Shown here piece by piece: positions 2,215 to 33,300 of a DNA stretch of 64,000 nt. Position numbers and translations under genes: made by a program. Each line of letters opens with the position of its first letter. Position 1 is the first letter of the stretch. This stretch comes from a virus. The stretch lies in the IMG/VR virus record IMGVR_UViG_3300018080_004265, positions 1 through 64,000 of that record, one strand, 5' to 3'. Below the pieces are notes generated by a model. That model searched no databases. It saw only the letters and a list, made by a program, of their open reading frames with translations, and had not been told where the DNA came from.

Positions 2215-3186
2215 ATGGAACTACCAATACTGAAGTCAAAAGGCCCATGGAAAAAAGGTAAAAAAGCACCCGAAATTAAACCTTTTGTTTCACATTCAAA
2301 AGAAGAATATGAAAGACGAAAAAACAATCTTTTAGAACAAGGATATGAAATAATTAAAGAAGATTATAAAATGACTCCCGAGGGTCCCAAATTTACTATT
2401 TATGCAAAATATAATCCTGTTGATACCCGATTTGAAATTAATGAAGATGTAATTTATGAGGGTGATGATGCTATTGTTGTTGGTCAAGAAGGTAATAATT
2501 ATATTGTTAGTCTTCCATATATGGATCAAACTGTAATAGCAGAACCAAGTGAATTACGAAGACCAACAGCAGATGAATTACATTATAGTGATGTAGTTGC
2601 AAAACCTAGTAGATCTAAAGACCCAAAAGATATGCCGATTGAAGATGTTTTAGCAGAAGCAAAAGAATTATTGAGTGGTGCAAAAAGGTATGAAGAAGGT
2701 AGAAAAACTATTAAATCTAAAGGACCGTGGAAAAAGGGAAAGAAATTAAAAGTAGATAATAAAGGAATACAACAGATTGTAGATAGAATAGATGATATTG
2801 ATGATGAGATATCAATACTAGAAGATGATCTATATGATGATAGAGTTCAAGAAGGTGGAACACTTGGTGGGATGAATGAATACGAACTTGAAGAAGAAAT
2901 AAGAAAACTCAGCAACAAAAAAGACTCATTAACTGCTCAATTAAAAAAACTTTCTAAATCAAAAGGACCATGGAGATTTCGTAAGAAAAAACATGGTGAA
3001 CAAAGATATGAATATCCTCGACAAACAGAATGCAAATATGCTTTACCAAAGAAAAAAAATAAATCAATGGGAGGCATGACAACAACAGGAGGCGGAAGAG
3101 GAGTAGTAACAGTTGGTATGGGTAGTTATCCTAAATTAAGAAAGAAAGAACATCTACCTTCAGAGAAAAAGAAAAGGAGAAAATAA
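2215..3186 (+). CDS. Protein with three SKGPWKKGKK tag copies
   Basis: Three near-identical basic tags are spaced through this 323-residue protein: KSKGPWKKGKK at the N-terminus after LPIL, KSKGPWKKGKK near residue 173, and KSKGPWRFRKKK near residue 250. Between the first two is a predicted small beta-barrel-like stretch (INEDVIYEGDDAIVVGQEG), and between the last two an acidic coiled coil. The C-terminus is Gly- then Lys-rich. ATG 2215 is preferred over an upstream TTG because TGAGGAGA lies just before it. The same tag occurs at the start of unrelated proteins downstream. The function is unknown; a virion or scaffold-associated address tag is an inference. Confidence 0.75.
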   Translation: MELPILKSKGPWKKGKKAPEIKPFVSHSKEEYERRKNNLLEQGYEIIKEDYKMTPEGPKFTIYAKYNPVDTRFEINEDVIYEGDDAIVVGQEGNNYIVSLPYMDQTVIAEPSELRRPTADELHYSDVVAKPSRSKDPKDMPIEDVLAEAKELLSGAKRYEEGRKTIKSKGPWKKGKKLKVDNKGIQQIVDRIDDIDDEISILEDDLYDDRVQEGGTLGGMNEYELEEEIRKLSNKKDSLTAQLKKLSKSKGPWRFRKKKHGEQRYEYPRQTECKYALPKKKNKSMGGMTTTGGGRGVVTVGMGSYPKLRKKEHLPSEKKKRRK

Positions 3187-3362
3187 TGAGAAAAGCAAAG
3201 TCATTAGCTTATGAAAAGAAAAGAGCAGAGAAAACTTGGAGAACAACTAAAAAAGAAGAGCGAAAAGATGCATATAAAGTTTACTTAAAAGTATGTGCTA
3301 AGATAAAAAGAGAAATGAGAGATAGAAGAGCTAGAAAAGTAGCACCAAAACAAGTAGGTTAA
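3186..3362 (+). CDS. Small Arg/Lys-rich protein
   Basis: A 58-residue, strongly basic, helix-prone protein (KKRAEKTWRTTKKEERKDAY, then KIKREMRDRRARK). Its ATG overlaps the TAA of the preceding gene by one base and its own stop is 2 bp before the papain-like gene, indicating translational coupling. The charge suggests nucleic-acid binding or capsid-interior packing. No family is recognised. Confidence 0.6.
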   Translation: MRKAKSLAYEKKRAEKTWRTTKKEERKDAYKVYLKVCAKIKREMRDRRARKVAPKQVG

Positions 3363-3364
3363 TA

Positions 3365-4237
3365 ATGAAAGATGAGAACAAAACAACTGGGGCAAAACGT
3401 TCACCTGTTGATGAAAGAGACTGGCGAGCAGAATCAATACATCCAACAGTAACACTTCCTTTAAAATTTGATTTAAGAGAGAAGATGCTTCCCGTTAGAG
3501 ATCAAGGATATCAAGGTTCGTGTGCAGCAATGACAGCGGCCGCTATGAAAGAATATCAAGAATATATAAATATTAGTTTAGCAGAATATATGAGCCCTCA
3601 GTTTGTTTATGATAATAGATATGATCAAACACATCTTGCTGGAATGTATGGTAGAGAAGTTATGCAGATCCTTCAAGAAAAGGGAGATTGCAGAGAAGTA
3701 ACTTATCCATATAATCATCCCCATAGTCCAGAAGATATTGCAGAAAATATATATGAAGAAGCATTGAATTTTACAATACAAAATTATGCTCAAGTAACAA
3801 CAATAGAAGGATTAAAAACTGCATTGATGCAGAATGGTCCTTGTTATATAGCTGTTCCTGTTTATAGATACGATACAAGAATGTGGTACCAATATCCTGG
3901 AGATGTTGGTAAATGTGGTCATGCTATGACAGTTGTAGGGTGGGATGATAAGGGATTTATAATCAGGAATAGTTGGGGAGAAGATTGGGGAGACAAAGGA
4001 TTTTGTACTTTCCCTTATGAAGATTGGGGATGGCAATGGGAAGTTTGGTCTCCTATTGATGATAATTCATCAACCCCTAATCCGAAATATTTTAATAATT
4101 TATGGCTGATGAAATTCTGGTTATGGCTGCAAAAAGCATATAAAAAATATAGACCATTTTTTGATATGGCAATATTGACTGCAGTTTTCTTTACTGTAAA
4201 ATTTATTTTAGTTGATCTATTACATTGGGTGAAATGA
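3365..4237 (+). CDS. Papain-like (C1A) cysteine protease with C-terminal membrane anchor
   Basis: A 290-residue protein with the full C1-type catalytic set. Cys53 is in QGYQGSCAAM (Gln50 would form the oxyanion hole), His186 is in KCGHAMTVVGW, and Asn202 is in RNSWGEDWGDKGF, the hallmark downstream block. The DLREKMLPVRDQG start of the mature domain is also typical. There is no signal peptide. A hydrophobic helix near residues 267-286 (AILTAVFFTVKFILVDLL) predicts membrane anchoring at the C-terminus. C1 proteases are uncommon in phages. Possible roles are host-protein or envelope cleavage, or virion maturation; context does not decide. The protease call is very secure. Confidence 0.93.
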   Translation: MKDENKTTGAKRSPVDERDWRAESIHPTVTLPLKFDLREKMLPVRDQGYQGSCAAMTAAAMKEYQEYINISLAEYMSPQFVYDNRYDQTHLAGMYGREVMQILQEKGDCREVTYPYNHPHSPEDIAENIYEEALNFTIQNYAQVTTIEGLKTALMQNGPCYIAVPVYRYDTRMWYQYPGDVGKCGHAMTVVGWDDKGFIIRNSWGEDWGDKGFCTFPYEDWGWQWEVWSPIDDNSSTPNPKYFNNLWLMKFWLWLQKAYKKYRPFFDMAILTAVFFTVKFILVDLLHWVK

Positions 4238-4434
4238 TCACTGAAAAGACTTTGATGAGAGATATATATTGTTCTTCTGATTTCAAAAAAGAATTAGTAA
4301 TTAGATTATTTAATATTCCTAGAGGTTCTTGTTTTAGTTGTATGGGAATAGCACATATATCATTAAAAGATGCTTGTAAAGAAAAAAATTTAAATTTAGA
4401 GAGTGTGTTAAATGAAATACAAACTACCAATTGA
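4234..4434 (+). CDS. DUF1858-like redox-disulfide protein
   Basis: A 66-residue protein starting at ATG 4234, overlapping the previous TGA (ATGA). It shows the plan of the small hybrid-cluster-associated redox disulfide domain (DUF1858): MITEKTLMRDI, a helix, then CFSCMGIAHISLKDACKEKN. The CxxC pair and the helix with DACK follow the family pattern. Such proteins occur mostly in anaerobes and are thought to act in redox chemistry. An in-frame TTG at 4225 is rejected in favour of the ATG. Family assignment is from memory of the pattern. Confidence 0.7.
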   Translation: MITEKTLMRDIYCSSDFKKELVIRLFNIPRGSCFSCMGIAHISLKDACKEKNLNLESVLNEIQTTN

Positions 4435-4687
4435 GAAAGCTATTAAAAGTGGATATGATAAGATTTTCTGGGATGCTGGAAAATCTAGTAATTATAATGG
4501 GAAATATGATCCTAAACAATTAGCTATGGGAATAAAAGTTGAATATGAGCATACAACAGACAAAAAGATGGCTGAGAAAATTGCTAAAGATCATATTGCG
4601 GAAATTCCAGATTATTATACCAGATTAGATGCTATGGAAGAACAAGCTAAAGCTGAAGGTAAATTCAGAAAAATTCCCAACAAATAA
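4412..4687 (+). CDS. DUF5661-like protein with LPIxK start
   Basis: A 91-residue protein overlapping the preceding gene by 23 bp. After an MKYKLPIEK start it carries a segment typical of DUF5661 (DPKQLAMGIKVEYEHT, then AEKIAKDHIAEIPDYYTRL), found in phage and bacterial small proteins. The LPIEK start recurs in other proteins of this window (13955, 14358, 14894). The function is unknown. Conserved His/Glu/Asp residues in the core could bind metal, which is inference. Confidence 0.75.
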   Translation: MKYKLPIEKAIKSGYDKIFWDAGKSSNYNGKYDPKQLAMGIKVEYEHTTDKKMAEKIAKDHIAEIPDYYTRLDAMEEQAKAEGKFRKIPNK

Positions 4688-4710
4688 AATAAAGTCAAGG
4701 AGAGATGTTA

Positions 4711-5859
4711 ATGAAGCGCACAGTTTTAATGTGGAAAGCCGACCATGCTGGGTGTGGCTGGGCAAGAATAGAGATGATTTCAAAATACTTAAATAAATAT
4801 TATGGAGATGAATTAGAAACAAGAACTTCGAATGTTATGAATCCAGATGAATGGGTAGAAAAAGATAAAGATGGTAAAATAATTGGTCCCAAGATACATT
4901 TAACAATACATCAACGACAATATGGGACACCTAACTTACAAAACTTTAGAGTACTCCAGAGAAATTTAAAGATTCCATGTATATATGAAATAGATGATTA
5001 TTTACATGGTGTGAGTAGATGGAGTACGGCATATCAAGCATATAATCCTCATACACAAAAAGAGCGATTTAAAAATATCGATTTATATTTAAAAGAAGCA
5101 AATGCTGTTACAGTAACGACAGATTATTTAAAAGGATTATATTCAGCTTACAATGGTAAAATTTACGTTCTGCCTAACTGTATAGATTTTGATGAAGTTT
5201 ATACCGATGAAATTCTCAAATTAAGAGAACAACATAGGAGTGAACATGAAAAAAAGAATGAAATTTGGATTGGGTGGGCCGGGTCTAATACTCATTTACC
5301 TGATCTACGTATTATCATTGATGCTATTAAGCAAATCTTGCACGATTTTCCAAATGTCAAACTCGCCCTCGGTGGTTGGCATGGAGAATTTAGAAATAAA
5401 GAAGGCGAAATAGTAAATCCAGAACTTAACCCATGGAAAGATGTTCCCGAAGATAGAATAGTTAAAATCCCATGGGCTAAAGATATGAAAGATTACCCCA
5501 AGATGCTTGCTCAATTTGATATAGGACTTGCTCCATTAGAAGATAATGATTTTAATAGAGCAAAATCAAATATTAAATTATTAGAATATGGTGGGTGTGG
5601 AGTTCCAGTAATTTGTTCTGATGTTGAACCATACACTCAAACAGTAACAAGCGGAGAGAATGGTTATAGGATTAAAGTTAAAGGGTCAGTTCATTATAGA
5701 TGGTATAAAAGAATAAAGCAATTAGTTGAAGATAGAGAAATGAGATTGAAATTGGGAACGAATATTAATAAGTATGTAAGAGATAATTTTGATATAAAAA
5801 AGAATATCCATTTATGGCGAGATGCATATGTAGATATTATGGATTCTTTTCATAAATGA
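4711..5859 (+). CDS. GT-B glycosyltransferase (GT4-like)
   Basis: A protein of about 382 residues with GT-B features. The N-terminal half opens with GCGWARIEM (Gly-rich loop) and contains YEIDDYLHGV. The C-terminal half contains IWIGWAGSNTHLPDL, a KIPWAKDM segment, a DIGLAPLEDNDFN stretch and SNIKLLEYGGCGVPVICSD, which matches the GT4 sugar-nucleotide site (E-x7-E-like, with GVPV). ATG 4711 is chosen over ATG 4705 because AAGGAGAG ends at 4704, so 4711 has normal spacing. It probably transfers a sugar onto host surface glycan, a virion protein or DNA; the substrate is unknown. Confidence 0.88.
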   Translation: MKRTVLMWKADHAGCGWARIEMISKYLNKYYGDELETRTSNVMNPDEWVEKDKDGKIIGPKIHLTIHQRQYGTPNLQNFRVLQRNLKIPCIYEIDDYLHGVSRWSTAYQAYNPHTQKERFKNIDLYLKEANAVTVTTDYLKGLYSAYNGKIYVLPNCIDFDEVYTDEILKLREQHRSEHEKKNEIWIGWAGSNTHLPDLRIIIDAIKQILHDFPNVKLALGGWHGEFRNKEGEIVNPELNPWKDVPEDRIVKIPWAKDMKDYPKMLAQFDIGLAPLEDNDFNRAKSNIKLLEYGGCGVPVICSDVEPYTQTVTSGENGYRIKVKGSVHYRWYKRIKQLVEDREMRLKLGTNINKYVRDNFDIKKNIHLWRDAYVDIMDSFHK

Positions 5860-5874
5860 TGAAGGGGAGATACA

Positions 5875-6222
5875 ATGCCATTCGAATCAAAAAAACAAGC
5901 GCGCTTTGCTTTCGGAACAGATCAACCATGGGCTGAGGAATGGGCAAAGAAAACAGATTTTAAGAAACTACCTGAAAAGAAGAAAAAAAAGAAAAAATCA
6001 TTAGATCTTCCAATGTATAAATCAGAAGTAACTGATCTTGCAAAAGATGTAATGAAAAATAAGATTACTCTTCCTGAAGCATTGGGTAAAATAGATAATG
6101 GCAAACGTAAACAGTTATTAAAAGAGATAAGAACTAATGGGAAGTCTGTTAAGAAAAAGAATAAAAAGAAAAAGTTAACTACTGAAGGTCAAGCATTATC
6201 TTCATTAGGCGGCGGAATGTAA
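5875..6222 (+). CDS. Basic protein with phage KKQARFAF motif
   Basis: A 115-residue protein opening with SKKQARFAFGTDQPWAEEW. This matches a recurring phage motif (usual form KSKAQARFMFA...PxxAxxWA) found in small proteins near head genes. Two Lys-rich blocks flank a central helical segment that begins LDLPMYKS. SD GGGGAG precedes ATG 5875. The net charge suggests DNA or capsid-interior contact. The function is unknown; it belongs to the tagged group by position and motif style. Confidence 0.7.
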   Translation: MPFESKKQARFAFGTDQPWAEEWAKKTDFKKLPEKKKKKKKSLDLPMYKSEVTDLAKDVMKNKITLPEALGKIDNGKRKQLLKEIRTNGKSVKKKNKKKKLTTEGQALSSLGGGM

Positions 6223-6737
6223 TGGCACTAAATAAATTTCAAGATAATAATATAGAAAAGGGTAAACCATGGCATATGCAGAATCGTATGTATGGGGAAG
6301 GGCGCGGATTTTCTGGAAGAAAAGAAAAGATCAAGCATTATAAATTAAAAGGATTTTTAGATTGGCTCGAAGAGCGACATGATATGAAGTTATCTATTGC
6401 TGGAGAAATGCTGACAAGAGGAAAAAGTAATGATATTAAGTTAGTTGCAGAACCAACTGAAAAAAATTTTAGCAAAGTAAGATCATCAGTTCATGAAATG
6501 TTAGGGTATCTTCGACATGTACAGAGAAGTTTATATAATCAAGAGAAACCAACAACAGAGATATCTATTAAAATGAAGCCTGAATGGAAAAATGATGTAA
6601 AAATATTATTTGAAAATGAATATCCCGATATTGATGTAAATAAAATTAAATATATTAAAATGAAAAGAAGCGGGTTATTTGATCATTTTGATGGATTTGA
6701 ATATGATGAAATACCCCATGAGAGGATAGATCAATGA
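6222..6737 (+). CDS. KGKPW-tagged protein, unknown
   Basis: A 171-residue protein whose N-terminus carries the tag IEKGKPWHMQNRMYGEGRGF near residues 11-30, followed by a basic GRKEKIKH stretch. The body is helical and mixed-charge with no known motif. Its ATG lies within the stop of the upstream gene and its stop overlaps the next ATG (ATGA at 6734). The tag is shared with 6734, 11669 and 12823 while the bodies differ, which argues for a common addressing role rather than common enzymatic function. Confidence 0.7.
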   Translation: MALNKFQDNNIEKGKPWHMQNRMYGEGRGFSGRKEKIKHYKLKGFLDWLEERHDMKLSIAGEMLTRGKSNDIKLVAEPTEKNFSKVRSSVHEMLGYLRHVQRSLYNQEKPTTEISIKMKPEWKNDVKILFENEYPDIDVNKIKYIKMKRSGLFDHFDGFEYDEIPHERIDQ

Positions 6738-7321
6738 CATTAAAAAAATATGGATCAAGTTTTTATAAGAGTTCATTTTCAAAAGCTAAACCATGGCTTC
6801 TTCAACAACGAGAATTCGGAGCGGGAAAAGGTAAAAAAGGTACAACAAAAAAGACTCCAGCTGAAGAATTCAATCATCCACCAATAGGGGTTATAACTAC
6901 AAAAGAACAAACATTGCGAGGGGTAGACCAAACTCCAGACTTTCATTTAAAAGCTGAAAAATATGATGTTATTGGAGTTAGTGAAGATATGCATGGTATA
7001 AAAACATATGTAACAAATACTTGGTATGATAAAGATAAAAGGATCCCTTTGCTTATTCATGAAGCGATGGTTGATAACTTTCAAGATATGCAAGAAGCAA
7101 TGATCGAATCAGACCTTGATGTTCAACACAGAGCATGGAAAGCTAAAGATGAATTAATCAAAGTTGGAAAAAATAATGATTATAAATTAGATTCCTCAAC
7201 TGTTAGTAGAATTACTGATAAATTTGATATTGAATTAGAAGATCTTCAAAGAGCAATGCAAAGATCTGATTATAGTTTAGAATACAATGGTTACGGGAAT
7301 TTTACATTAGAAGAAAATTAA
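6734..7321 (+). CDS. KAKPW-tagged protein, unknown
   Basis: A 195-residue protein with the N-terminal tag FSKAKPWLLQQREFGAGKGK followed by KGTTKK. The body after about residue 45 contains a mixed alpha/beta region (KYDVIGVSEDMHGIKTYVTN) and helices with many acidic residues. I recognise no domain. The ATGA overlap with the upstream gene implies coupled translation. Tag and body boundaries are clear by eye because the tag is basic and Gly-rich while the body is acidic. Confidence 0.7.
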   Translation: MTLKKYGSSFYKSSFSKAKPWLLQQREFGAGKGKKGTTKKTPAEEFNHPPIGVITTKEQTLRGVDQTPDFHLKAEKYDVIGVSEDMHGIKTYVTNTWYDKDKRIPLLIHEAMVDNFQDMQEAMIESDLDVQHRAWKAKDELIKVGKNNDYKLDSSTVSRITDKFDIELEDLQRAMQRSDYSLEYNGYGNFTLEEN

Positions 7322-7332
7322 AGGAGTAAAGA

Positions 7333-7869
7333 ATGAAAGTATTGCATGAGGGAAAGTATGTATCATTGGTAGATCTTAGTGTTGGATATGAAACACTAAA
7401 AGAGAAAGATATTGTTATTTCATTTGTAAAAAAAGTAAGTCAATTCGGGGAAACACTTTATGCTGTTAGATATGAGAATTGTCCGCCTTATAGTGAAGAT
7501 GAAAATTATTATACAATAATTAGTGGCAAAATAGATGAAGGCGAAACTCCAATGGATGCTTGTATTAGAGAATTAGTTGAAGAAGCTGGAGTAAAAATAT
7601 TAAATAAAGATATTGTTAATCCATCATTTGAAAAGATTCCAGTATGTAAATCAACTATGATGAGAACGAACTTATATATTATTACATTAAATGAGGATCG
7701 CAAAGATCTTGATTGGGAAGAGACAGAAGCAACGGGTGATGGAACAGAGTTTGAAGGTAACAGTGAAACACAATGGCTCACAATGGATGAACTAATAAAC
7801 ATTCTAAATAATAATAGCAACTTTGATGTACTATATTATCTAGCATGTTTTGTGTATCAAAATGCATAA
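7333..7869 (+). CDS. Nudix hydrolase
   Basis: A 178-residue protein with a complete Nudix box, G-x5-E-x7-REL-x-EEAG-V, at about residues 65-87 (GKIDEGET, then RELVEEAGV). This loop-helix-loop binds Mg2+ and cleaves nucleoside diphosphates linked to another moiety. Beta strands before and after fit the family, and a short insert with TEATGDGTEFEG precedes the C-terminal helix. SD AAGGAG. Phage Nudix enzymes can act on (d)NTPs, NAD-type cofactors, ADP-ribose or RNA caps. The substrate cannot be read from sequence. Confidence 0.9.
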   Translation: MKVLHEGKYVSLVDLSVGYETLKEKDIVISFVKKVSQFGETLYAVRYENCPPYSEDENYYTIISGKIDEGETPMDACIRELVEEAGVKILNKDIVNPSFEKIPVCKSTMMRTNLYIITLNEDRKDLDWEETEATGDGTEFEGNSETQWLTMDELINILNNNSNFDVLYYLACFVYQNA

Positions 7870-7956
7870 GTAAGGTGATTAAAGATTGATAACAAATTAC
7901 ATGATATACTTAATGATTTAAGTATTGAATTAGCTAAAGAATCTGCCGGGATCAAT

Positions 7957-9453
7957 ATGACCCCCGTAGATATTGAGACTTTTTTATATGGTAAAGACTA
8001 TATGAATTTGTCTCCAGATAAAGATCATCCATTAAGATTATCTGATGAACAAATGCGTGTTTTACGAGAACTTGATGATGATAATCCAGATACAAATAAG
8101 ATTATAGAAGCGGTATTAGTTTGGGGAAAAGGATCTGGTAAAGATTGGATAACATCGATCTTTTTCTGTAGAAGAGTCTATAAATTATTATGTTTAGCAA
8201 ATCCTCAGAAATTTTACGGTATGCCAGCCGGTGAACCTATGGAATTTTTGAATGTTGCAGTATCTGCTGAACAAGCTAACTCAGTATTCTTTTTTAAATT
8301 GACTAATATGATAAAAGAAGCTGGGCCATTAGCATTCAAACAATTTGGATTTGATAAAAATAAAGATATATTATCGAATAAAATAATTTTCCCTAAAAGT
8401 ATAATATTACATAGTGGACATAGTGAACAAGCGTCCTTAGAAGGTAAGAACTTATTTGCAGCTGTTATGGACGAAGCCGCTGAGTTTAAAACTGAAGCTG
8501 AATTAAGAGGTAAAGGACATAGAGCTAAAAAATCAGCTCCAGCAATTTATAGATTTTTAGCTTCATCAATTCGTTCGCGTTTCCCAACAGTTGGTAAATT
8601 AATAATTATATCTTATCCTCGATTTGCTAATGATTTTATTTTACAAAGATATGAGATTGGAAAAAATGCTCCTGACACTTTAACAAGTTTTGGGACAACA
8701 TGGGAAATAAATCCCCTAAGAAAAAGGGATGATTTTAATAAAGATTATAGAGAAAATCCAGAGCAAGCTCGAAGTCAATACGAATGTGTTCCTCCAATGG
8801 CAAAAGAACCATTCATTAGAGAATCAGAAAAAGTTGATTTCATTATAGATAATATGATAAAATCTCCGTATGATTTATGGGGAACATATTATCCAGAATT
8901 TAGAGGTAAACCATATTCATATGCTGTTGGAGTCGACTTAGCATTAACTGGAGATAGAGTTGGGTTCGCATTAACGCACAAAGAACAACGGATACTTAAT
9001 GATACGAGAAAAGATATAGTTGTTCTTGATTTGTTAAAGACATGGGAAGCTGAACCCGGAAAAGAAATAGATCTCGATCTAATTACTAAAGAGATATTAT
9101 TTCTTCGATCAAGAGGCTTTAATATTATACAAATATTTTTTGATCAATTCCAAAGTGCACATATAATTCAACAATTAAGAAAGCTTGGATTTGCTGTTGA
9201 TAGATTATCAATAGAAACAAAATTAGATATATGGAATTCTGTTAAAACATTAATATATAATTACGAATTAAAAACTTATAAAAGTGAAGCAAGTTATTTA
9301 TTAATAGAAGAGTTAAAAGGATTAAGTTTATTTAATGGGAAAAAAGTTGATCATACAGATACTACTACAAAAGATTTGTCTGATGCAGTTGTAAGAGCGA
9401 TCCACGGGTTAGTACAAACAGGTGGTAGCGAGTTTGTGTTTAAGCCAGCGTAA
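7957..9453 (+). CDS. terL: Terminase large subunit
   Basis: A 498-residue DNA-packaging motor. The ATPase has Walker A-like VLVWGKGSGKDW (about residues 53-64) and Walker B FAAVMDEAAEF (about 165-172). The RNase H-like nuclease begins YAVGVDLALTGDRVGF (about 322 on) and has later acidic residues including FFDQF and a C-terminal DLSDA. The frame stays open and protein-like upstream of ATG 7957 back to an ATT at 7885. That ATT has AAGGTG seven bases upstream, whereas 7957 has only a weak site, so the true N-terminus may be 24 residues longer. No small terminase subunit is recognisable nearby. Confidence 0.95.
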   Translation: MTPVDIETFLYGKDYMNLSPDKDHPLRLSDEQMRVLRELDDDNPDTNKIIEAVLVWGKGSGKDWITSIFFCRRVYKLLCLANPQKFYGMPAGEPMEFLNVAVSAEQANSVFFFKLTNMIKEAGPLAFKQFGFDKNKDILSNKIIFPKSIILHSGHSEQASLEGKNLFAAVMDEAAEFKTEAELRGKGHRAKKSAPAIYRFLASSIRSRFPTVGKLIIISYPRFANDFILQRYEIGKNAPDTLTSFGTTWEINPLRKRDDFNKDYRENPEQARSQYECVPPMAKEPFIRESEKVDFIIDNMIKSPYDLWGTYYPEFRGKPYSYAVGVDLALTGDRVGFALTHKEQRILNDTRKDIVVLDLLKTWEAEPGKEIDLDLITKEILFLRSRGFNIIQIFFDQFQSAHIIQQLRKLGFAVDRLSIETKLDIWNSVKTLIYNYELKTYKSEASYLLIEELKGLSLFNGKKVDHTDTTTKDLSDAVVRAIHGLVQTGGSEFVFKPA

Positions 9454-9465
9454 AGGAGGGTAGTA

Positions 9466-9993
9466 ATGAAAGCGACGATACAGTATAGTATTGAAAGTGT
9501 TGTAAATTTTGTGATATCTGCAGCTGAACAATTTTCTGATTCAACTAAAGATAAAAATTTTGAGTATTTAAAAAGATATAAAGCCAGAATTGGGCTGAAA
9601 CAAAATGATTCTGTAGATATTGTAATAGTATATAAAACATGGGATAAACATGTTGCTGAACTACAGAATAGAATAAATTATAAACTTTCAGATAATTCAA
9701 AAGTTGGTGTATTTTTTAAAGGCGGAAAAAATAAAGAATATTTTTTAATGCCATTTAATTTTAATATTTTACTTGAGAGTGCTGATTCGTTTATGCAAAA
9801 AATGCGTTCGGAGAAAATGAATCCAATCGCATTAGTTAATTTAGAAATTAAAAATTTTGGTATGTTTGAAGATATCCTTGAAAAAAATAAAAAATCAAAA
9901 AAATTAAATTTTGAACCTACTTATTTGCATCTTCAACGTGAAGATAAATTTGATTTAGATAAACACGTATTAGGTGCATGGAGTAATAAATAG
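9466..9993 (+). CDS. Hypothetical protein following terminase
   Basis: A 175-residue soluble protein with good SD (GGAGGG). The sequence shows alternating beta and helical stretches (SVDIVIVYKTWDKHV, then KVGVFFKGGKNKEYFLMPFN). No family is recognised. It is immediately downstream of the terminase and followed by two small genes in the same order and strand, so a packaging or head-related role is possible but unsupported. Confidence 0.65.
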   Translation: MKATIQYSIESVVNFVISAAEQFSDSTKDKNFEYLKRYKARIGLKQNDSVDIVIVYKTWDKHVAELQNRINYKLSDNSKVGVFFKGGKNKEYFLMPFNFNILLESADSFMQKMRSEKMNPIALVNLEIKNFGMFEDILEKNKKSKKLNFEPTYLHLQREDKFDLDKHVLGAWSNK

Positions 9994-10008
9994 AAAGGGG
10001 AATTAAAG

Positions 10009-10269
10009 ATGGCTGATGAAGTAAAGGCTACTGAAAAGAAAGGGGAAATTAAGATTGAATCTAAGGAGGAAGCGATCAAGGCCTTGGAAAATCTTTCTGT
10101 AATCGTATATTCTAGAATGAAAGGTAAAGGATTGAGTCTTATTGAAAAGATCATTCCCGAAGGAAGCGATTCTTTAGAACCAAACAAAACATTATTCACT
10201 TCTTATACTAGCGCAATTTCGAATGATGTATCTAAGACAGTTAAAAAAGCTCTTGAATTCTTAAAATAA
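10009..10269 (+). CDS. Small acidic/basic helical protein
   Basis: An 86-residue, mostly helical protein: a charged N-terminus (KATEKKGEIKIESKEEAIKA), a central KGKGLSLIEKIIP segment and a helical C-terminus. SD AAAGGGG precedes ATG 10009. No motif is recognised. It lies between the post-terminase gene and 10273 with spacings of 15 and 3 bp, clearly part of the same transcript. Confidence 0.6.
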   Translation: MADEVKATEKKGEIKIESKEEAIKALENLSVIVYSRMKGKGLSLIEKIIPEGSDSLEPNKTLFTSYTSAISNDVSKTVKKALEFLK

Positions 10270-10272
10270 AAT

Positions 10273-10659
10273 ATGAGACGCAAATTTGATGTTTTTAAAG
10301 GTATCTCCATGGATGGAGTTGATAAACTCGCCAACTTTTTTGATATACAAAGAGCTGGACGGGATACTGATGTTCAATTTAGACAAAAAGTCAAAAGTTG
10401 CGTCGATTATTTTCAACATAAAAATCAAGAACCTGTAATAAAGCCAATAACAAAATCTTTAAGCGAATTATCATATGAAGTTTGTGGATACGATAAAGAT
10501 CTTGAAAATTATATGGCTGAACGAAGCGTTGAATTAAAACGTATCCCATTAGGTACAAAAGTTAAAGCAACTGATTTATTAAAAACTCAGCTGGCTAAAT
10601 TTACGCCTCCAAGAACTTATGTAGATGGGCAAGGGAATATCTGGAAAATAGTAGTTTAA
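10273..10659 (+). CDS. Hypothetical 128-residue protein
   Basis: Starts 3 bp after the preceding stop. The N-terminal half looks helical (ISMDGVDKLANFFDIQR). The C-terminal part has IPLGTKVKATDLLKTQL followed by an aromatic tail with a DGQGN turn. No family is recognised. The stop lies inside the -35 region of the promoter at 10655, so this gene ends a transcription segment that is reinforced immediately downstream. Confidence 0.6.
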   Translation: MRRKFDVFKGISMDGVDKLANFFDIQRAGRDTDVQFRQKVKSCVDYFQHKNQEPVIKPITKSLSELSYEVCGYDKDLENYMAERSVELKRIPLGTKVKATDLLKTQLAKFTPPRTYVDGQGNIWKIVV

Positions 10660-10683
10660 ATTTGCTTTCTTTTGCAGTATAAT
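10655..10683 (+). promoter_or_regulatory. Phage promoter P1 (TTTAAA-17-TATAAT)
   Basis: The -35-like TTTAAA is at 10655-10660, followed by a 17 bp spacer and -10 TATAAT at 10678-10683. The flanks AGTTTAAA and CAGTATAATATA are shared exactly, with identical spacing, by the element at 10881-10909. It lies 27 bp upstream of the ATG at 10711, which has a strong AAGGAGG. The repeated arrangement rather than the AT-rich hexamers alone supports the call. Confidence 0.7.
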
Positions 10684-10710
10684 ATACTATCAAAATCAAG
10701 GAGGTAGTAT

Positions 10711-10872
10711 ATGGAAGTTAATGAAAGATTGTATACATTTTTAGATAGTGACGAGAACATTATTTTTCAGGTACGAGCATATAGTCATGATCACGCAGTA
10801 ATGAGAGCACAAGGAAGTTATACGGGTTATGATGTTGATAGTGATACCGATTTTTATAGCGAGTCCTTATAA
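10711..10872 (+). CDS. Small acidic protein between two promoters
   Basis: A 53-residue acidic protein (MEVNERLYTFLDSDENIIFQ opening, then an AYSHDHAVMRAQGSY segment and an Asp-rich end). The ribosome binding site AAGGAGG is near-perfect. It has its own promoter 27 bp upstream and another promoter follows 9 bp after the stop, so it is a self-contained expression unit. The size and isolation recall early or regulatory phage proteins such as anti-host factors; that is inference. The body resembles small DUF-type proteins that modify signal input (VRAYSHDHAV), but I cannot name a family. Confidence 0.6.
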   Translation: MEVNERLYTFLDSDENIIFQVRAYSHDHAVMRAQGSYTGYDVDSDTDFYSESL

Positions 10873-10880
10873 AATAACAG

Positions 10881-10909
10881 TTTAAAAAGAAAGAAAAGTA
10901 CAGTATAAT
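10881..10909 (+). promoter_or_regulatory. Phage promoter P2 (TTTAAA-17-TATAAT)
   Basis: TTTAAA at 10881-10886, a 17 bp spacer and TATAAT at 10904-10909. It shares AGTTTAAA, a 14-base interval and CAGTATAATATA with P1, while the spacer sequences are unrelated (pyrimidine-rich in P1, purine-rich in P2). That is what a protein-recognised bipartite site should look like. It drives the HExxH gene at 10937 and probably the small tagged genes after it. Confidence 0.7.
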
Positions 10910-10936
10910 ATAGAAGCAAAGTAAAGTAGGTTAATT

Positions 10937-11461
10937 ATGGAACTCGAAGTACAAGTAAATTTGTCAAGAGAAGCAGAGCAATTTATCATAGCATTTTTAT
11001 CACAATATAATGTCGATAAACTTGCATACATAAGATTACGCGGATCGAAAGGGATTGGCAATCATGGTTATTGTCAATATCCAATATCGACAAGAAAATA
11101 TAATAAATTACGACACATTAGAAGAAATATTCAACCAAGAAAGTACTATCATATCGTTTGTAATATTGGCAGAGACACAACGTACCCCCGTAAGATATCA
11201 CAATATATTGGGTGCAAAGTACCTCAAGGATTTAAGGGTGATCCTTCAGGCTTAGCGCGCAATCAGCTTGATTGGGTATACGATGAAGAAGAAGTAAGAG
11301 ATATAAATGAAGAAACGATATGGATATTTGGACATGAGATATTTCATTTTCTTCGAAAGACACGGCAAGTCGATGGAAGAAATACACAATCTCAAGCGAA
11401 CAAGTTTGGGTTTAAATTATTAAGAGATTTTAAAACTCAAACATATTATAATAGTATATGA
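10937..11461 (+). CDS. HExxH putative zinc metallopeptidase
   Basis: A 174-residue protein containing FGHEIFHFL, an HExxH zinc-binding helix at about residues 133-137, preceded by an acidic helix (DEEEVRDINEETIWI). Downstream a segment with Gln/Asn residues (NTQSQANKFGF) is where a third ligand could lie. The N-terminal ~100 residues have beta-type and basic stretches and include cysteines. HExxH alone also occurs in non-proteases, so catalysis is not proven. The gene follows promoter P2 by 27 bp and overlaps the next gene (ATGA at 11458). Confidence 0.65.
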   Translation: MELEVQVNLSREAEQFIIAFLSQYNVDKLAYIRLRGSKGIGNHGYCQYPISTRKYNKLRHIRRNIQPRKYYHIVCNIGRDTTYPRKISQYIGCKVPQGFKGDPSGLARNQLDWVYDEEEVRDINEETIWIFGHEIFHFLRKTRQVDGRNTQSQANKFGFKLLRDFKTQTYYNSI

Positions 11462-11658
11462 AAAAATATAAGATCTATGAAAATAACGAATGGCTAACAA
11501 CAATGGCTGCATCTTCTATAAAAGAAGCAAGAGATAAATTTTTAAAACAATATCCATATTATAAGGATAAAGAAAAATTTAAAAACTTATCTGTTGGAGA
11601 ATTAACGAGTTTTAGTTCAGTGGGATTTGATTTAAAGACAATAAAATATTTATTATAA
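11458..11658 (+). CDS. Hypothetical 66-residue protein
   Basis: The ATG overlaps the TGA of the metallopeptidase-like gene, so the two are probably co-translated. The sequence begins MKKYKIYENNEWLTTMAASS and continues with a helix (IKEARDKFLKQYPYY). The pattern of an edge strand, an IKEAR helix and a second strand resembles small DUF-type alpha/beta domains. No function is recognised. Confidence 0.55.
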   Translation: MKKYKIYENNEWLTTMAASSIKEARDKFLKQYPYYKDKEKFKNLSVGELTSFSSVGFDLKTIKYLL

Positions 11659-11668
11659 GGAGTCAATA

Positions 11669-12574
11669 ATGGTTATTCATAAATATGGAATTGACGATAA
11701 TAGAGAAATTTCCAAGGGTAAACCATGGGTATTACAACAACGTGGATTTGGAGAAGGACGCGGTAAAAAAGGAAAGAAATTAAGTAACGATGATATTTTA
11801 GATATTAGATATCACGGTATTGATCAAGGATATGCATATAATATTGCTATTGCGAGAATACAAGAAAATGGGATATTTAAAGATATTACTTATTATCAAA
11901 GTCCAGATAATCCAAATGATTGGGGATCTGAAATTTATCAAGGTAAAAATTATATAGAATATTCTGAAGACCCATCCTTTTCAAGAAATTATAAAAATGG
12001 AGAAGGTTTACCAGAAAAATATAAAGATATAGTTAGTACTCTTAAAAAAATGCATGAAGATCGTTATGGAGAAGAAGAAATTGAAGAAGAAGTTGAACCA
12101 GAAATTGGAGATTATGTCAGAATAGCAAGTCATTTAGTAGAAGCTGGTGGAAAAAGCGGAGAAGTAGTAGAAAAGCATGGAAGCTTTTTAGTTGTTGATG
12201 TTGATGGTAAATATTTTAGTGTTCATGCGAGTGACACTGATATTGTTGATGATGATGAATTAATGGATGAGATGGAAGAAGAAGTTTATCAAGATGAGAT
12301 CTTACAAGAACTAGATCAGCAAAATATGATTACGGGATTAAAGAATAAATTTCCAACATTAGAACTTGGAACTACTGAAGAATTTGGAACAAGTGCTGGT
12401 GGTATTTGGGTTAAGAATAATCCTGATATGCCAGATGGAATACCAATGTTTGATTCATATGCTAATAATTCACTTTATCCTTTGGGAGTACATAAAGATG
12501 TGAATCAAATTCTTACAGATCATGGATGGCACGCTGAATGGCATGATGCTGGAACAGTAATGTTTTGGCAATAA
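11669..12574 (+). CDS. KGKPW-tagged protein with SH3/KOW-like barrel
   Basis: A 301-residue protein. The tag ISKGKPWVLQQRGFGEGRGK occupies residues ~13-32, preceded by an MVIHKYGIDDN lead and followed by KGKK. After an acidic helix, residues ~145-200 form a beta-rich unit (IGDYVRIASH, GKSGEVVEKHGSFLVVDVDG), like KOW/SH3 barrels. The C-terminal 90 residues are a separate unit (FGTSAGGIWVKNN, then HGWHAEWHDAGTVMFWQ). Strong SD AAGGAG. The tag is shared with 6222, 6734 and 12823. The function is unknown; the barrel suggests nucleic-acid or protein binding. Confidence 0.72.
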   Translation: MVIHKYGIDDNREISKGKPWVLQQRGFGEGRGKKGKKLSNDDILDIRYHGIDQGYAYNIAIARIQENGIFKDITYYQSPDNPNDWGSEIYQGKNYIEYSEDPSFSRNYKNGEGLPEKYKDIVSTLKKMHEDRYGEEEIEEEVEPEIGDYVRIASHLVEAGGKSGEVVEKHGSFLVVDVDGKYFSVHASDTDIVDDDELMDEMEEEVYQDEILQELDQQNMITGLKNKFPTLELGTTEEFGTSAGGIWVKNNPDMPDGIPMFDSYANNSLYPLGVHKDVNQILTDHGWHAEWHDAGTVMFWQ

Positions 12575-12584
12575 GGAGATTATA

Positions 12585-12818
12585 ATGCGTAAATTATTAG
12601 TTGAGAAATCTAAGGGGCCATGGAAGAAAGGTAAGAAAGGTCCAGTAACTAAAGAGCAAAAATTGAAAGATGCTGCTGTGAATATTTACTATCATCAATA
12701 TCGACAAAAGGATAATTACGATATAATAAGAAAACTTCTTGGGAAAGAAAGTGTTAGCATTGAAGATGTAGAAGACATTTTAAAAATACCAAAGCGCTCA
12801 AGAATATTAGAAAGGTAA
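12585..12818 (+). CDS. SKGPWKKGKK-tagged small protein
   Basis: A 77-residue protein beginning MRKLLVEKSKGPWKKGKKGP, i.e. the same basic tag that is repeated three times in the gene at 2215. The remainder is a short helical body (NIYYHQYRQKDNYDII, then SVSIEDVEDILKIPKR). Good SD AAGGAG. Because the tag makes up a quarter of the protein, it gives the simplest example of tag plus small domain. Confidence 0.7.
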   Translation: MRKLLVEKSKGPWKKGKKGPVTKEQKLKDAAVNIYYHQYRQKDNYDIIRKLLGKESVSIEDVEDILKIPKRSRILER

Positions 12819-12822
12819 TACA

Positions 12823-13569
12823 ATGACTGTTAATAAATATCATTTAGATGGTGATAATAAGAAATTTGAAAAAGGTACTGGAAAACCCTGGGCCCTTCAA
12901 CAAAGAAAACCTGGTAAAGGTAAAGGTAAAAAAGGAAAAGAAGTTAAATATGATGATGTTATATTAGAAGAAATAATGAATGATATTGATACTTCAAAAA
13001 AGACATTGACTAGTTTACAAGGGCAAGAGTTAAATCATTATATCTCAGCTGGATCTTCTAATCTTTATGAAAAGAGAGCAATTCAATATCATGTTGGCCA
13101 AATAATTTCAGCTCCTGTTCCAGCATTATCTGAAGCACGAGAAAAATTAAAAGAGATCGATAAAAAATATACTGTAAGAATTGCAGAAGATATGGGAAAA
13201 AATGAATCTAGAAATCTTGCTAGATTACATCATGATAAATTAAAAGAACAAAAAAGAATTGTATTTGGGGTACAACAATATTTAGATCTAACTCCAGAAA
13301 AGCAAGATGTAGGAGATAAGTATCTTGATGTAGCTAAAAAATTAGGGATTAAACCAGAACCAATGGGAACAGCTCCATTTATTTTTCATAAAAAAAATGG
13401 GGATACTCTTACTTTTGGTTATGTTGATGGCCCATTAGGTTGGGATATTGTTAATAGAGAAGGAGAAATAAAAGATTCAAATCAGATGGAAGATGAATAT
13501 GCATCAGCCGAAGATCAAGTAGCTTTTATGAGAGATGTTGCTGATACATATGGATTTGAGCTTAAATAA
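12823..13569 (+). CDS. GKPW-tagged helical protein
   Basis: A 248-residue protein with the N-terminal tag TGKPWALQQRKPGKGKGKKG near residues 19-38, after an MTVNKYHLDGDN lead like that of 11669. The body is mainly helical with a coiled-coil-like region (LSEAREKLKEIDKKY). It ends in a small alpha/beta unit (GTAPFIFHKKNGDTLTFGYV, then VAFMRDVADTYGFELK). That C-terminal part resembles the DUF1257 (Ycf35-like) layout, but only weakly. The stop overlaps the next ATG. Confidence 0.68.
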   Translation: MTVNKYHLDGDNKKFEKGTGKPWALQQRKPGKGKGKKGKEVKYDDVILEEIMNDIDTSKKTLTSLQGQELNHYISAGSSNLYEKRAIQYHVGQIISAPVPALSEAREKLKEIDKKYTVRIAEDMGKNESRNLARLHHDKLKEQKRIVFGVQQYLDLTPEKQDVGDKYLDVAKKLGIKPEPMGTAPFIFHKKNGDTLTFGYVDGPLGWDIVNREGEIKDSNQMEDEYASAEDQVAFMRDVADTYGFELK

Positions 13570-13958
13570 TGTATTATCAATGTGTTGGTAAAACTCATTA
13601 TTACGAGAAGCTGGGCTTCCCTCAGTATAAGGGACCAAATAACGTAAGTAAGTTTATTGACTATAAAGATTGGATGCCAGGGTACAAAAAGACTCCATCA
13701 GAATTAGGTGTACCATTTCCGCCTCCAGAACAATTTAGAGATGCTGATGGCAGATTATGGTTATTAAGACATGGCGATATTGGAGTTGATGGCAATAAAC
13801 CATTTACAAGTGAAGCTAGACATGGTGCAGAAGCAGTTGGGGATTGGAGTGGATTTAAGCCTCAAGTAAAAGAAAAAACATATGATCCGAATTTAAGTTG
13901 GGCTTTTCAATGGGGAAATACATGGCAAAGCCTTAAACGAAGGGGATTTTTAAAATGA
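13569..13958 (+). CDS. Aromatic-rich hypothetical protein
   Basis: A 129-residue protein rich in Trp, Tyr, Gly and Pro (KFIDYKDWMPGYKKTP, FPPPEQFRDADGRLW), with TSEARHGAEAVGDWSGF in the second half and a SLKRRGFLK end. The similar C-terminal SLKERG of the gene at 15244, and a shared build of Pro-rich turns with a W-rich segment, suggest the two could be distant relatives. It has no tag, but overlaps tagged genes on both sides by 1 and 4 bp. Confidence 0.6.
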   Translation: MYYQCVGKTHYYEKLGFPQYKGPNNVSKFIDYKDWMPGYKKTPSELGVPFPPPEQFRDADGRLWLLRHGDIGVDGNKPFTSEARHGAEAVGDWSGFKPQVKEKTYDPNLSWAFQWGNTWQSLKRRGFLK

Positions 13959-14197
13959 AAAAATATAAACTGCCAATAAAAAAGAATATAGATAAACTTC
14001 CTATAGAAAAAGGTGGACCAGGATCTGGTCGAAGAAAAGGAAGTCGACTTGATGTTGGAATGCCATTAGTTAATGTTAATGGTAAACCTGGAGAAATTGT
14101 TGGTGGTAATAGTAGACATGGTTATTGGGTAAGATTCCATGGTAGTGGAGAAGAAAAACGTTATCCTGCTAAAAAAATTCATGTTATGAGAGACTAG
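13955..14197 (+). CDS. LPIxK/KGGPGSGR-tagged SH3-like protein
   Basis: An 80-residue protein. Two LPIxK units (YKLPIKK, KLPIEK) lead into KGGPGSGRRKGSR, a motif I know from many phage head-associated proteins. The remaining ~50 residues read as a small beta barrel (VGMPLVNVNGKPGEIVGGN, then GYWVRFHGSGEEKRYPAKKI). It thus repeats the plan of tag plus SH3-like barrel seen at 11669. Its stop is followed by a 160 bp AT-rich gap with no gene and no convincing promoter or terminator. Confidence 0.7.
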   Translation: MKKYKLPIKKNIDKLPIEKGGPGSGRRKGSRLDVGMPLVNVNGKPGEIVGGNSRHGYWVRFHGSGEEKRYPAKKIHVMRD

Positions 14198-14357
14198 TTA
14201 AAATAGTATTAACAATTAATTTAAATTTGTTATTATCGCTATAAGAAAAGTTAATAAGTATTATATCCTCTTTCATTCTTCTGTTAATCATAAAAAATTG
14301 CCTTCGTAGATAACATTTTTGTGGTAATAATTATATATATAGAGCAATAGCTTTCAA

Positions 14358-14873
14358 ATGAAAAAAACATTAATTTTAGATAATTTAGGTCGTATACAAG
14401 GGAGGTTGGAACCTCGCGGAGGTGACGTGTATGTGTATGACCGCAATGGTGTGTATCAAGGAAAAACTTCTGGCGGAAAAACATATAACAAGAATGGGAT
14501 TATTATTGCTATTGGAGAAATCCCTGGTATTTTAATAAAATCAAAAAATAAATTACCAATTCAAAAAGGCGGTCCAGGATCTGGTAGAAAAAAATTAACT
14601 GAAAAAGATAAGAAACTTATAGCGTTAGCAAAAAAAGTAATTAAACCAGGTATGGATGCGTCTGATATAGTTGCTGCTTTAAAACAAGAAGGAGTAAGCC
14701 CTACTGAATTTTGGAAACCAAAAGATTATGAAACATGGGCTGAAAGAACTGGAAAAAAACATAAAGAAGCAAATAAAAATAGATCACAAGAAGATATTCA
14801 AAAAGAAGAAGAAAAGTATAAGAAACAACAAGAGAATGAAGATAAGACAAAGCGTAGATATGATATTGGCTAA
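14358..14873 (+). CDS. Protein with internal LPIQKGGPGSGR tag
   Basis: A 171-residue protein in which the tag KLPIQKGGPGSGRKK is internal (about residues 67-81). It is preceded by an unusual domain of Gly/Asp turns (LGRIQGRLEPRGGDVYVYD, then RNGVYQGKTSGGKTYNKNG). The body after the tag is helical and Lys/Glu-rich. No SD is visible before ATG 14358, and the first ~100 bases are clearly more GC-rich than the surroundings. A perfect 6 bp inverted repeat (GAGGTT/AACCTC) lies near 14401-14415. This looks like a fusion of an acquired N-terminal domain to a normal tagged protein. Confidence 0.6.
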   Translation: MKKTLILDNLGRIQGRLEPRGGDVYVYDRNGVYQGKTSGGKTYNKNGIIIAIGEIPGILIKSKNKLPIQKGGPGSGRKKLTEKDKKLIALAKKVIKPGMDASDIVAALKQEGVSPTEFWKPKDYETWAERTGKKHKEANKNRSQEDIQKEEEKYKKQQENEDKTKRRYDIG

Positions 14874-14893
14874 ATAAAAAAGGAGAGTGTTAC

Positions 14894-15244
14894 ATGAAAA
14901 AGTTACCTATTCTAAAAGCTAAAAAGAAACCTACGCGTTCTCAAGCAAAACAATCTGGAACGTATATCGGATTTGATAAATTGGTTGAGAAGTTAAAAAG
15001 AAAAAAAGGTATTTCAGAAAATTCATTGGAAAAAGCTTTGGATATTTTGAAAGTAGAGGATTTCTTCGAAGAACTTTGGGTAAAATCCATTGATGGTGTT
15101 ATTATGAACACACCAGAATTTATGGAAGAAATTGGGAAGGCAAAGGTTTATAATCCCGCTGGATTAGCTGCATATATTGGAAGAAAAAAGTATGGAAAGA
15201 AAAAGTATCAAGAAATGGCAGCTAAAGGAAAGAAGAAAAAATAA
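14894..15244 (+). CDS. LPILK-tagged protein with phage IGRKKYGK motif
   Basis: A 116-residue protein starting MKKLPILKAKKKPTRSQAKQ. It ends with NPAGLAAYIGRKKYGKKKYQ and a Lys-rich tail. The last motif (usual form PxxLAAxIGRKKYGKxxF..MAAxGRK) is widespread as a short terminal module of phage proteins. The middle is helical (GISENSLEKALDILKVEDFFEEL order). Good SD GGAGAG. Both ends therefore carry recurring phage tags, which supports a structural or packaged role. Confidence 0.72.
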   Translation: MKKLPILKAKKKPTRSQAKQSGTYIGFDKLVEKLKRKKGISENSLEKALDILKVEDFFEELWVKSIDGVIMNTPEFMEEIGKAKVYNPAGLAAYIGRKKYGKKKYQEMAAKGKKKK

Positions 15245-24963: not shown

Positions 24964-25405
24964 ATGGGTTTAGAGAAAGCTCTTTCTAGTGCCGTAGGTC
25001 AAGGCGGAGATACAATTATCCCTCAGCTTGCTGATCAGATAATTCCATTTATTCGTCAAAAGTCTTATTTAAGACAATTCCTACAAAGTTTCACTATGCC
25101 TACAGAAACATATCGTTTTCCTAAGTTAACACAAGGGAATTCTGTATATTATGTGGGTGAAGCTGCAAGTGCACCTGAGAGTTTAATGACTACAGGAACT
25201 ATCGAACTTAATGCTAAAAAGCTTATGGTTGCGTTAGCAATTTCTGCTGAGTTAGAAGAAGATGCTGTTGTTCCTATCGTACCGGTTGTCCGTGACGATA
25301 TGGCAAAAGCATTCGCTCTTGCTGAAGAAAACGTATTCATCAATGGTGATACGACTCATACAGCGACTCAAACAGATCCTGCTTCTGCTACAGAAGCGGA
25401 TTGGT
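24964..25405 (+). CDS. Major capsid protein, exon 1
   Basis: HK97-fold major capsid protein start: VGQGGDTIIPQLADQIIPFI, then LRQFLQSFTMPTETYRFPKL, GEAASAPESLMTTGTIELNA and AFALAEENVFINGDTT. After ATEADW the frame runs into non-coding intron sequence. The 5' splice site after T25405 is defined by a P1 helix (ATTGGT 25400-25405 with GCCAAT 25415-25420) ending in the required U-G pair. Joined exons 25405|26380 and 26639|27603 give 945 nt, a 314-residue protein. It continues as W-Y-VNDHRLAFNG across junction 1. Confidence 0.93.
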
Positions 25406-32742: not shown

Positions 32743-33300
32743 ATGACTATATATAAATACGTAGTAGATGAAAATATAAATAAAGCAAAAAAGCCAGTTA
32801 AAGTTAGATCAAAAACTGGTAAAGTGTTTACTCAAATGAGAGAAGAAGGTAAAGGAGCTAAAACAAAAACTCCTAAAATTCTTTATCATGTAGCATTTAC
32901 TGAAAAAGTTCCTAAGATAAAAGAAGAAGGAGTTAGACCATTACAACCAACAAATTGGGTTCAAGCAGGTAATAAGAAAAGATATGGTGGTGGAGAAGTA
33001 TATGCGTTTGAACATCCAGAAGATGCTTTTCGATGGGCAGCTAAAATGGATTGGGAATTTAATAAAGAGATGGGCAGTGGAAAAATTTCTGTAGTTAGAG
33101 CTAAAAATGATGAAGAATGGGAAATAGATGAAAATGATCCAATGAGTCAAGCCGGTTCAAAAGGTAATTGGCTTAAACATGATTTAGGAATCAAAAAAGA
33201 AAATATACAAGATGCTGTACCATTAACAATAGATATTACAAGAAAAATAACTGCAGGAGATACTGAAAAATTAGATTCATTATTTAAAAAGGAAAAATAA
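32743..33300 (+). CDS. Tagged protein with ADP-ribosyltransferase-like fold (putative)
   Basis: A 185-residue protein. The lead MTIYKYVVDENINKAKK and the basic KVRSKTGKVFTQMREEGKG are in the style of the tagged proteins at 6-14 kb. The body starts ILYHVAFTEKVPKIKEEGVR and continues with GGGEVYAFEHPEDAFRWAAK and ISVVRAKNDEEWEID. This is the order of His-strand, helix, YAFE-type strand and later acidic segment seen in ART-like domains of phage MuF-type effectors. Catalytic identity is uncertain. A virion-delivered effector is an inference from tag and location. Confidence 0.5.
   Translation: MTIYKYVVDENINKAKKPVKVRSKTGKVFTQMREEGKGAKTKTPKILYHVAFTEKVPKIKEEGVRPLQPTNWVQAGNKKRYGGGEVYAFEHPEDAFRWAAKMDWEFNKEMGSGKISVVRAKNDEEWEIDENDPMSQAGSKGNWLKHDLGIKKENIQDAVPLTIDITRKITAGDTEKLDSLFKKEK

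Follow-up and report, generated by a model that had tools for sequence, protein, structure and literature searches.

Unrelated proteins of an uncultured tailed phage share N-terminal tags and a candidate prohead protease site

Tagged proteins

The stretch of DNA analysed here, referred to as the window, comprises positions 1 to 64,000 of IMG/VR virus record IMGVR_UViG_3300018080_004265 and forms the initial 64 kb of a viral contig of 152,375 bases; the genome is that of a tailed phage. Between 2.2 and 15 kb, it encodes a series of proteins that have unrelated bodies and share a few short tag sequences. Three tag families are present, KPWxLQQRxxGxGxGKKG, KSKGPWKKGKK and GGxGSGR, while a fourth, HVRVSSxGKPFSAGKG, occurs in a relative. 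The element that unites these families is the junction in front of the tag, where a hydrophobic-x-Lys motif meets a small residue (this candidate cut is marked ↓ below). All tagged genes lie on the + strand and are named by their start positions.

The KPW family has four members. The 6222 protein (6222..6737; KPWHMQNRMYGEGRGFSG) consists of the leader MALNKFQDNNIEK and the tag GKPWHMQNRMYGEGRGFSG (6252–6317 with the site), followed by the body. The other three are encoded at 6734..7321 (leader MTLKKYGSSFYKSSFSK, tag AKPWLLQQREFGAGKGKKG, 6785–6841), at 11669..12574 (leader MVIHKYGIDDNREISK, tag GKPWVLQQRGFGEGRGKKG, 11717–11773) and at 12823..13569 (leader MTVNKYHLDGDNKKFEK, tag GTGKPWALQQRKPGKGKGKKG, 12874–12936). 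In the 11669 protein, PHROG 20865 matches the body only, from residue 48. The KSKGPWKKGKK tag is found in the 12585 protein (12585..12818), which starts with MRKLLVEK↓SKGPWKKGKK (12606–12638), and in the multi-site protein 2215 (2215..3186, with its ATG at 2215). The latter contains MELPILK↓SKGPWKKGKK (2233–2265) and, internally, IK↓SKGPWKKGKK (2713–2745) and the variant LSK↓SKGPWRFRKK (2956–2988); when numbered from a TTG start, these are at residues 11, 171 and 252.

Two proteins combine LPIxK with GGPGSGR. In the 13955 protein (13955..14197) the sequence is LPIEK↓GGPGSGR (13997–14032), while in the 14358 protein (14358..14873) an N-terminal domain precedes LPIQK↓GGPGSGR (14553–14588) and the body. 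LPIxK occurs alone in the 4412 protein (4412..4687; LPIEK↓A, 4424–4438), which belongs to the DUF5661 family (Pfam PF18905, E-value 1.3e-15), and in the 14894 protein (14894..15244), where MKKLPILK↓AKKKPTRS (site at 14903–14920) is followed by the body. The KKQARFAF protein (5875..6222) contains LPMYK↓S (6007–6021) and matches PHROG 1375 over residues 3–42. Further downstream, the protein encoded at 32743..33300 (+) begins with MTIYKYVVDENINK↓AKKPVKVRSKTGKVFTQM, in which the leader is of the same type and the tag is like VRVSSTGKPFSAGKG of a relative. Its body, after the VRSKTGKVF-type tag, appears by eye to be ADP-ribosyl- or 2'-phosphotransferase-like, with a weak Pfam match to PTS_2-RNA (E-value 0.098).

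Searches in Pfam and PHROG mostly left the tagged bodies without identity. A Pfam scan of ten tagged window proteins gave DUF5661 as the one significant match and no polyvalent effector domains, and a Foldseek search with the 6222 body returned no significant relative.

The tags were compared with composition-preserving shuffles of all 229 open reading frames of the contig (200 rounds for the leader motif). GGPGSG was observed twice (0.00 in shuffles), KGPW four times (0.12), K(A/G)KPW three times (0.23) and GxGxGKK three times (0.10). The leader motif M[TAV][ILV]xK[YF] was observed six times, versus a mean of 0.07 and a maximum of 2 in the shuffles; LPIxK-like sequences, with 13 observed and 4.9 expected, are uninformative when taken alone. 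The best ungapped 14-mer scores between tag copies are 62–69, while shuffles reach at most 41. A first-pass annotation of this DNA had described Gly/Lys/Trp-rich tags at or near the N-termini of different bodies. Each of the tags it named is present where it was described and is well above the shuffled controls. Most are N-terminal, with the exception of the tag in the 14358 protein (residues 66–77) and two of the three copies in 2215, which are internal, and GGPGSGR contains no Trp. The shared unit also turns out to be larger than the tag in the four KPW proteins, which have the leader upstream of it in common as well.

The junction in front of the tags

In the group of phages to which the window phage belongs, hydrophobic-x-Lys stands directly before 28 of 29 copies of the three tags: 13/13 for GGxGSGR (a single match in a tail protein rich in glycine, taken as chance, is left out), 7/7 for KPW and 8/9 for SKGPW, with Gly, Ser or Ala as the next residue. 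The probability of this occurring by chance is about 1e-15 for the hydrophobic residue at position P3 and about 4e-18 for the Lys at position P1. The conserved residue is Lys, often preceded by Glu, as in the candidate cut-site peptides LPIEKGGPGSGR, NIEK↓GKPWHM, VEK↓SKGPWKK and GLEK↓ALSS. The sharp boundary that had been ascribed to the tags is this motif, which the first-pass annotation overlooked.

The motif is concentrated at the N-termini of head-region proteins, with no such enrichment among tail or replication proteins. Within the first 60 residues of the proteins encoded at 1–35 kb, hydrophobic-x-K-[SGA] occurs 32 times (16.2 ± 3.8 expected) and hydrophobic-E-K-[SGA] 10 times (1.2 ± 1.1 expected). 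Over the same residues, neither motif is enriched in the tail region (hydrophobic-x-K-[SGA] 4 versus 5.2 expected) or in the remaining 88 kb, where hydrophobic-E-K-[SGA] is found 0 times versus 2.5 expected; within the head region, control motifs with Arg or acidic residues show no enrichment. In diverged ortholog contexts, considering the first 80 residues, the site is retained in 30 of 79 cases compared to 20 of 184 for pooled control motifs, the ortholog pairs not being independent. One head-region example is the large protein encoded at 29755..31980 (+), which has a P-loop-like GGMRSGKG sequence, no match in a Pfam scan and the candidate site YELEK↓AIPGMPK (29809–29820); its counterpart in a relative (L025:16310) reads IIKK↓AFAGMPR.

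Capsid protein, portal, protease and sigma factor

The junction is also present in the structural proteins of the head. The portal protein (18848..20500, +; Pfam PF04860, E-value 1e-38) has candidate sites MNK↓A and MEK↓S (18944–18955) in its N-terminal tail. A Lys↓Ser site ahead of a conserved PTY sequence is kept in all four portals compared, with changed flanks (MEK, LQK, MAK and IEK). The portal shares about 26% identity with portals of Bacillus and Staphylococcus phages; a search for portal homologs in GTDB genomes found none. The terminase (7957) resembles those of Streptomyces phages at about 32% identity, and a MuF/minor-head-like protein is encoded at 20702.

At 22876..24852 (+), an S78-family prohead protease (PF04586, E-value 2.6e-9) is fused to a scaffold-like carboxy-terminal part containing many candidate sites, many of which are conserved between relatives; Peptidase_S78 genes are likewise found in relatives (E-values 3.8e-11 and 1.6e-10). 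It is followed by exon 1 of the major capsid protein (24964..25536, +; PF05065, E-value about 1e-22), which begins with MGLEK↓ALSS (24970–24981). In two relatives the capsid protein starts with MASLEK↓ALSS and MSFEK↓ALNS, and the site is thus kept as LEK↓A, LEK↓A and FEK↓A in three phages. The HK97 capsid protein is cut between K103 and S104 (PMC10275583). Window residues K5↓A6 align on this K103↓S104 cut (residues 4–133 on 102–231 of structure 3qpr; 12–133 on mature residues 7–128 of 1ohg). The head cluster contains both an S78 prohead protease and an HK97-family capsid protein whose shell domain begins with a Lys↓small site.

The capsid gene (24964, 26397) is divided by endonuclease genes, and the phage also has tail genes. 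Endonuclease-like genes interrupt the capsid gene at 24964–26900 in the window and in two relatives (L024:16400–19265 and L025:12772–14670), and in another (L016:1–2584) an intein-like stretch and an endonuclease-like gene break up the terminase gene.

Between the genes for the minor head protein and the protease lies a gene for a sigma-70 factor (21542..22876, +), with regions 2, 3 and 4 (Pfam E-values 2.9e-9, 4.6e-7 and 1.6e-6) and a carboxy-terminal domain. Its site, IPIYK↓T (21608–21625), is present in all three phages compared, the other two having IPIVK↓S and IPIIK↓G. In one relative (L025:9986) most sigma regions have been lost while the site and the carboxy-terminal domain are kept, which suggests a structural role for that domain. 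If the site marks cargo, the sigma-70 factor would be the most consequential candidate.

Module exchange, selection and predicted structure

A search of 2.9 million viral contigs with the tag DNA found related phages (those compared include L016, L019, L020, L023, L024 and L025) in which the same tags are present on other bodies, the same bodies carry other tags, and fusions are joined exactly at the site. The body of the KPW protein 12823 recurs with GGPGSGR in its place in L019:9616 and L023:4168 (E-value 6e-13). The carboxy-terminal part of 2215 is homologous to L019:1335, whose N-terminal module has GGQGSGR instead. L024:3900 consists of the N-terminal domain of 14358 and the body of 14894, joined at LPIEK↓. 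The L025 relative of 4412 (L025:4029) has LPIMK↓S on the same DUF5661 body, and its ortholog of 6222 (L025:3032) retains IEK↓GKPW behind an unrelated leader. In L019 (contig 35698_011270), a run of neighbouring genes has leaders like MTIxKYxVNENEFEK↓GGxGSGR on different bodies. The fourth tag, HVRVSSTGKPFSAGKG, was found in contig 32046_000003, usually with an [IVA]EK↓[STA] junction a few residues upstream of it.

Hydrophobic-x-K↓GGxGSGR also recurs in unrelated phages on a variety of proteins, among them a pentapeptide-repeat protein, a topoisomerase IB encoded near the portal gene and one of 950 residues in which there are six copies. These contigs were selected by the pattern I-x-K-GGPGSGR, and only the nine copies without Pro are partly independent of that selection; all nine fit the junction. 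The 950-residue protein, from L037/L042 (contig 27749_000055), resembles a cargo polyprotein with its six GGxGSG-type copies, and several genes there have the leader MxNPFS...NYPVxK↓GGPGSGR.

At identical residues of tag copies within a genome, codons are as unlike one another as in independent draws (values of 0.47, 0.48, 0.54 and 0.57, compared to 0.43, 0.48, 0.58 and 0.53 expected). The codons of the copies are randomised, and the tags are therefore held by selection at the protein level. An AlphaFold model of the 6222 protein, made with a two-sequence alignment, predicts a disordered leader and tag and a folded body: the predicted local distance difference test score is 26–36 for residues 1–40, then changes abruptly and is about 70–88 over most of the body.

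Other genes of the phage

An actin-like protein is encoded at 1028–2044, with a full-length match to the Pfam family Volactin (E-value 2e-79); this family is named after an archaeal actin, and the phage nevertheless has a sigma-70 factor. A stand-alone RNA recognition motif protein (263–514; RRM_1, E-value 2e-21) is unusual for a phage. Among the tagged genes lies one for a papain-family cysteine protease (3365–4237; E-value 3.6e-21) with a hydrophobic segment at its carboxy-terminus. A 178-kb relative contains a block of sugar and glycosyltransferase-like genes after the terminase gene (L020:11471–21452).

Proposed mechanism and alternatives

We consider it likely that the tagged proteins are head cargo with an N-terminal propeptide and a Lys↓small prohead protease site; packaging, cleavage, the addressing part and delivery are what we infer from the sequences. 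Each precursor would consist of a short leader, the hydrophobic-x-Lys↓Ser/Gly/Ala site, a flexible basic or Gly-rich tag and the body. The leader, of the type MTIxKYxxNENxIEK or MxLPIxK, would serve as a propeptide and guide the protein into the scaffold-filled prohead, where the 22876 protease would cut after the Lys, as it would in the capsid protein, the portal tail and the scaffold. Mature cargo, starting with its basic flexible tag, would stay among the packaged DNA and be ejected with it; multi-site proteins, such as 2215 and the polyproteins of other phages, would give rise to several products. The cargo would thus probably be shipped inside the head, trimmed there and delivered into the next host cell. 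After the cut, the tag may serve in DNA binding, in making the site accessible or as a second address.

The first-pass annotation had proposed an addressing system whose tags bring cargo to the capsid or scaffold and are removed by the protease. Portable modules linked to head assembly, probably cut by the S78 protease, agree with the present analysis, but the tag itself does not appear to be the part removed: the Gly/Lys/Trp tag is on the carboxy-terminal (P') side of the predicted cut and would be kept on the mature protein, while the short leader would be lost. Since the part predicted to be lost is the leader upstream of it, the basic tag is not necessarily the address. That the basic tag is nonetheless the capsid or scaffold address, with a cut absent or incidental, seems rather unlikely to us, even though the tags are selected at the protein level, are spread more widely than any single leader and are in some cases internal, away from the leader (2215 and 14358). 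The sole feature common to the four unrelated tag sequences is the Lys↓small junction, which is also found in the capsid protein and portal, where there is no such tag. Furthermore, GGPGSGR and KPW proteins can have homologous bodies, and therefore no single tag sequence is required. Basic disordered tails commonly bind nucleic acids, and the tags, being basic and predicted to be disordered, could be DNA- or RNA-binding tails acting in the infected cell, with the junction as a mere module border and no packaging. We regard this as improbable, as it leaves unexplained both the confinement of N-terminal EK↓small motifs to head-region proteins and the sites in the capsid protein, portal and protease-scaffold.

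Tags that are remnants of shuffled domains, or copies of a short selfish DNA element that spread recently, would fit with the observed movement of modules between genes, but the copies have kept their residues while their synonymous codons were randomised; a recent repeat or gene-conversion element is ruled out by this within the genome, and the explanation as a whole is hardly credible. The least credible of the explanations is that all the proteins share a single folded domain to which the tags belong, a possibility raised with the first-pass annotation. The four KPW proteins do resemble one another over some 40 residues of leader and tag, but different tags swap on homologous bodies, and the low scores predicted for the first 40 residues of 6222, next to a confidently modelled body, contradict a common fold.

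Several observations weigh against processing of head cargo by the S78 protease. The site motif is loose, and about 16 of its 32 N-terminal occurrences are expected by chance, while some head-cluster genes lack it. The sequence match of the capsid protein to HK97 is weak (E-values 0.2–0.5), though that to PF05065 is strong. In most other contigs with GGPGSGR no S78 protease was found; many of these are short fragments, and two measure 51–113 kb. Two tagged proteins searched against cultured phages gave no match. Finally, no leader motif is common to the tagged proteins and the capsid protein or portal, for which reason we only infer the targeting route.

Comparison with known systems

The earlier statement that no such multi-protein tag set had been described does not hold, as capsid targeting sequences of T4, propeptides of SPN3US and the DarB signal of P1 are already known (PMC10052503, PMC9024508). 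According to a published account, T4 propeptides target the internal proteins and Alt into the prohead core and are removed by the phage prohead protease (PMC10052503). Several unrelated head proteins of SPN3US and phiKZ likewise have propeptides that the prohead protease removes (PMC10052503). In the window phage, too, several proteins with no relation to each other have a common N-terminal leader that runs up to a candidate prohead protease site, with cleavage predicted from sequence. Unlike in T4, where the protease is gp21, the cut is predicted after Lys and before Ser, Gly or Ala, and the protease is of the S78 (HK97-type) family. Sites of the T4 gp21 type have [IL]-x-Glu before the cut. 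A further difference from T4 and SPN3US is that the mature side opens with one of a few shared basic or Gly-rich tags, and that leaders and tags mix. Maturation of the HK97 capsid protein gp5 by gp4 is similar in its S78 protease and in the place at which the capsid cut is predicted here; however, the window phage has the site on many non-capsid proteins, and its scaffold is fused to the protease, not to the capsid protein.

In phage P1, the N-terminal 30 residues of DarB suffice to place a reporter in the capsid, the N-terminus of DarA is cut by the prohead protease, and no common N-terminal consensus of the Dar proteins was found by the authors (PMC9024508, PMC12810830). In contrast, shared leaders and tags are obvious in the window phage; the P1 capsid protein, moreover, is cut at E120↓S121 and not at Lys↓small. 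Polyvalent proteins (Iyer et al. 2017, PMC5512222) are phage proteins of several domains that are believed to enter the host as packaged cargo, whereas the cargo proposed here consists for the most part of individual small proteins that share a processing site, not of a long chain of effector domains. Removal of N-terminal propeptides from several head cargo proteins by a prohead protease is thus already known from T4, SPN3US and P1. What appears to be new is that cargo carries the HK97-type Lys↓small site, that a limited set of shared leaders and tags is used in varied combinations, and that these are apparently spread among uncultured phages; the string GGPGSGR was not found in any paper searched.

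A wider proposal, which we put forward tentatively and hold to be possible but doubtful, is that of a widespread combinatorial "ship-and-trim" code, by which phages with HK97-type proteases would fill their heads with cargo whose leaders, sites and tags are interchangeable. Among this cargo would be polyproteins that are cut into several products, and a sigma-70 factor by which host transcription would be redirected as soon as injection takes place. No paper on a packaged sigma factor was found in the literature, as partly judged by titles and abstracts; if the cargo reading is true, the idea becomes testable. Cargo processing by prohead proteases would then extend from T4- and phiKZ-type phages to those with HK97-type proteases, and proteins could be loaded into capsids by means of a portable signal. 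The rule of a leader, hydrophobic-x-Lys↓small and a basic tag would also allow the proteins that uncultured phages package and inject, now mostly unknown, to be read from their genomes.

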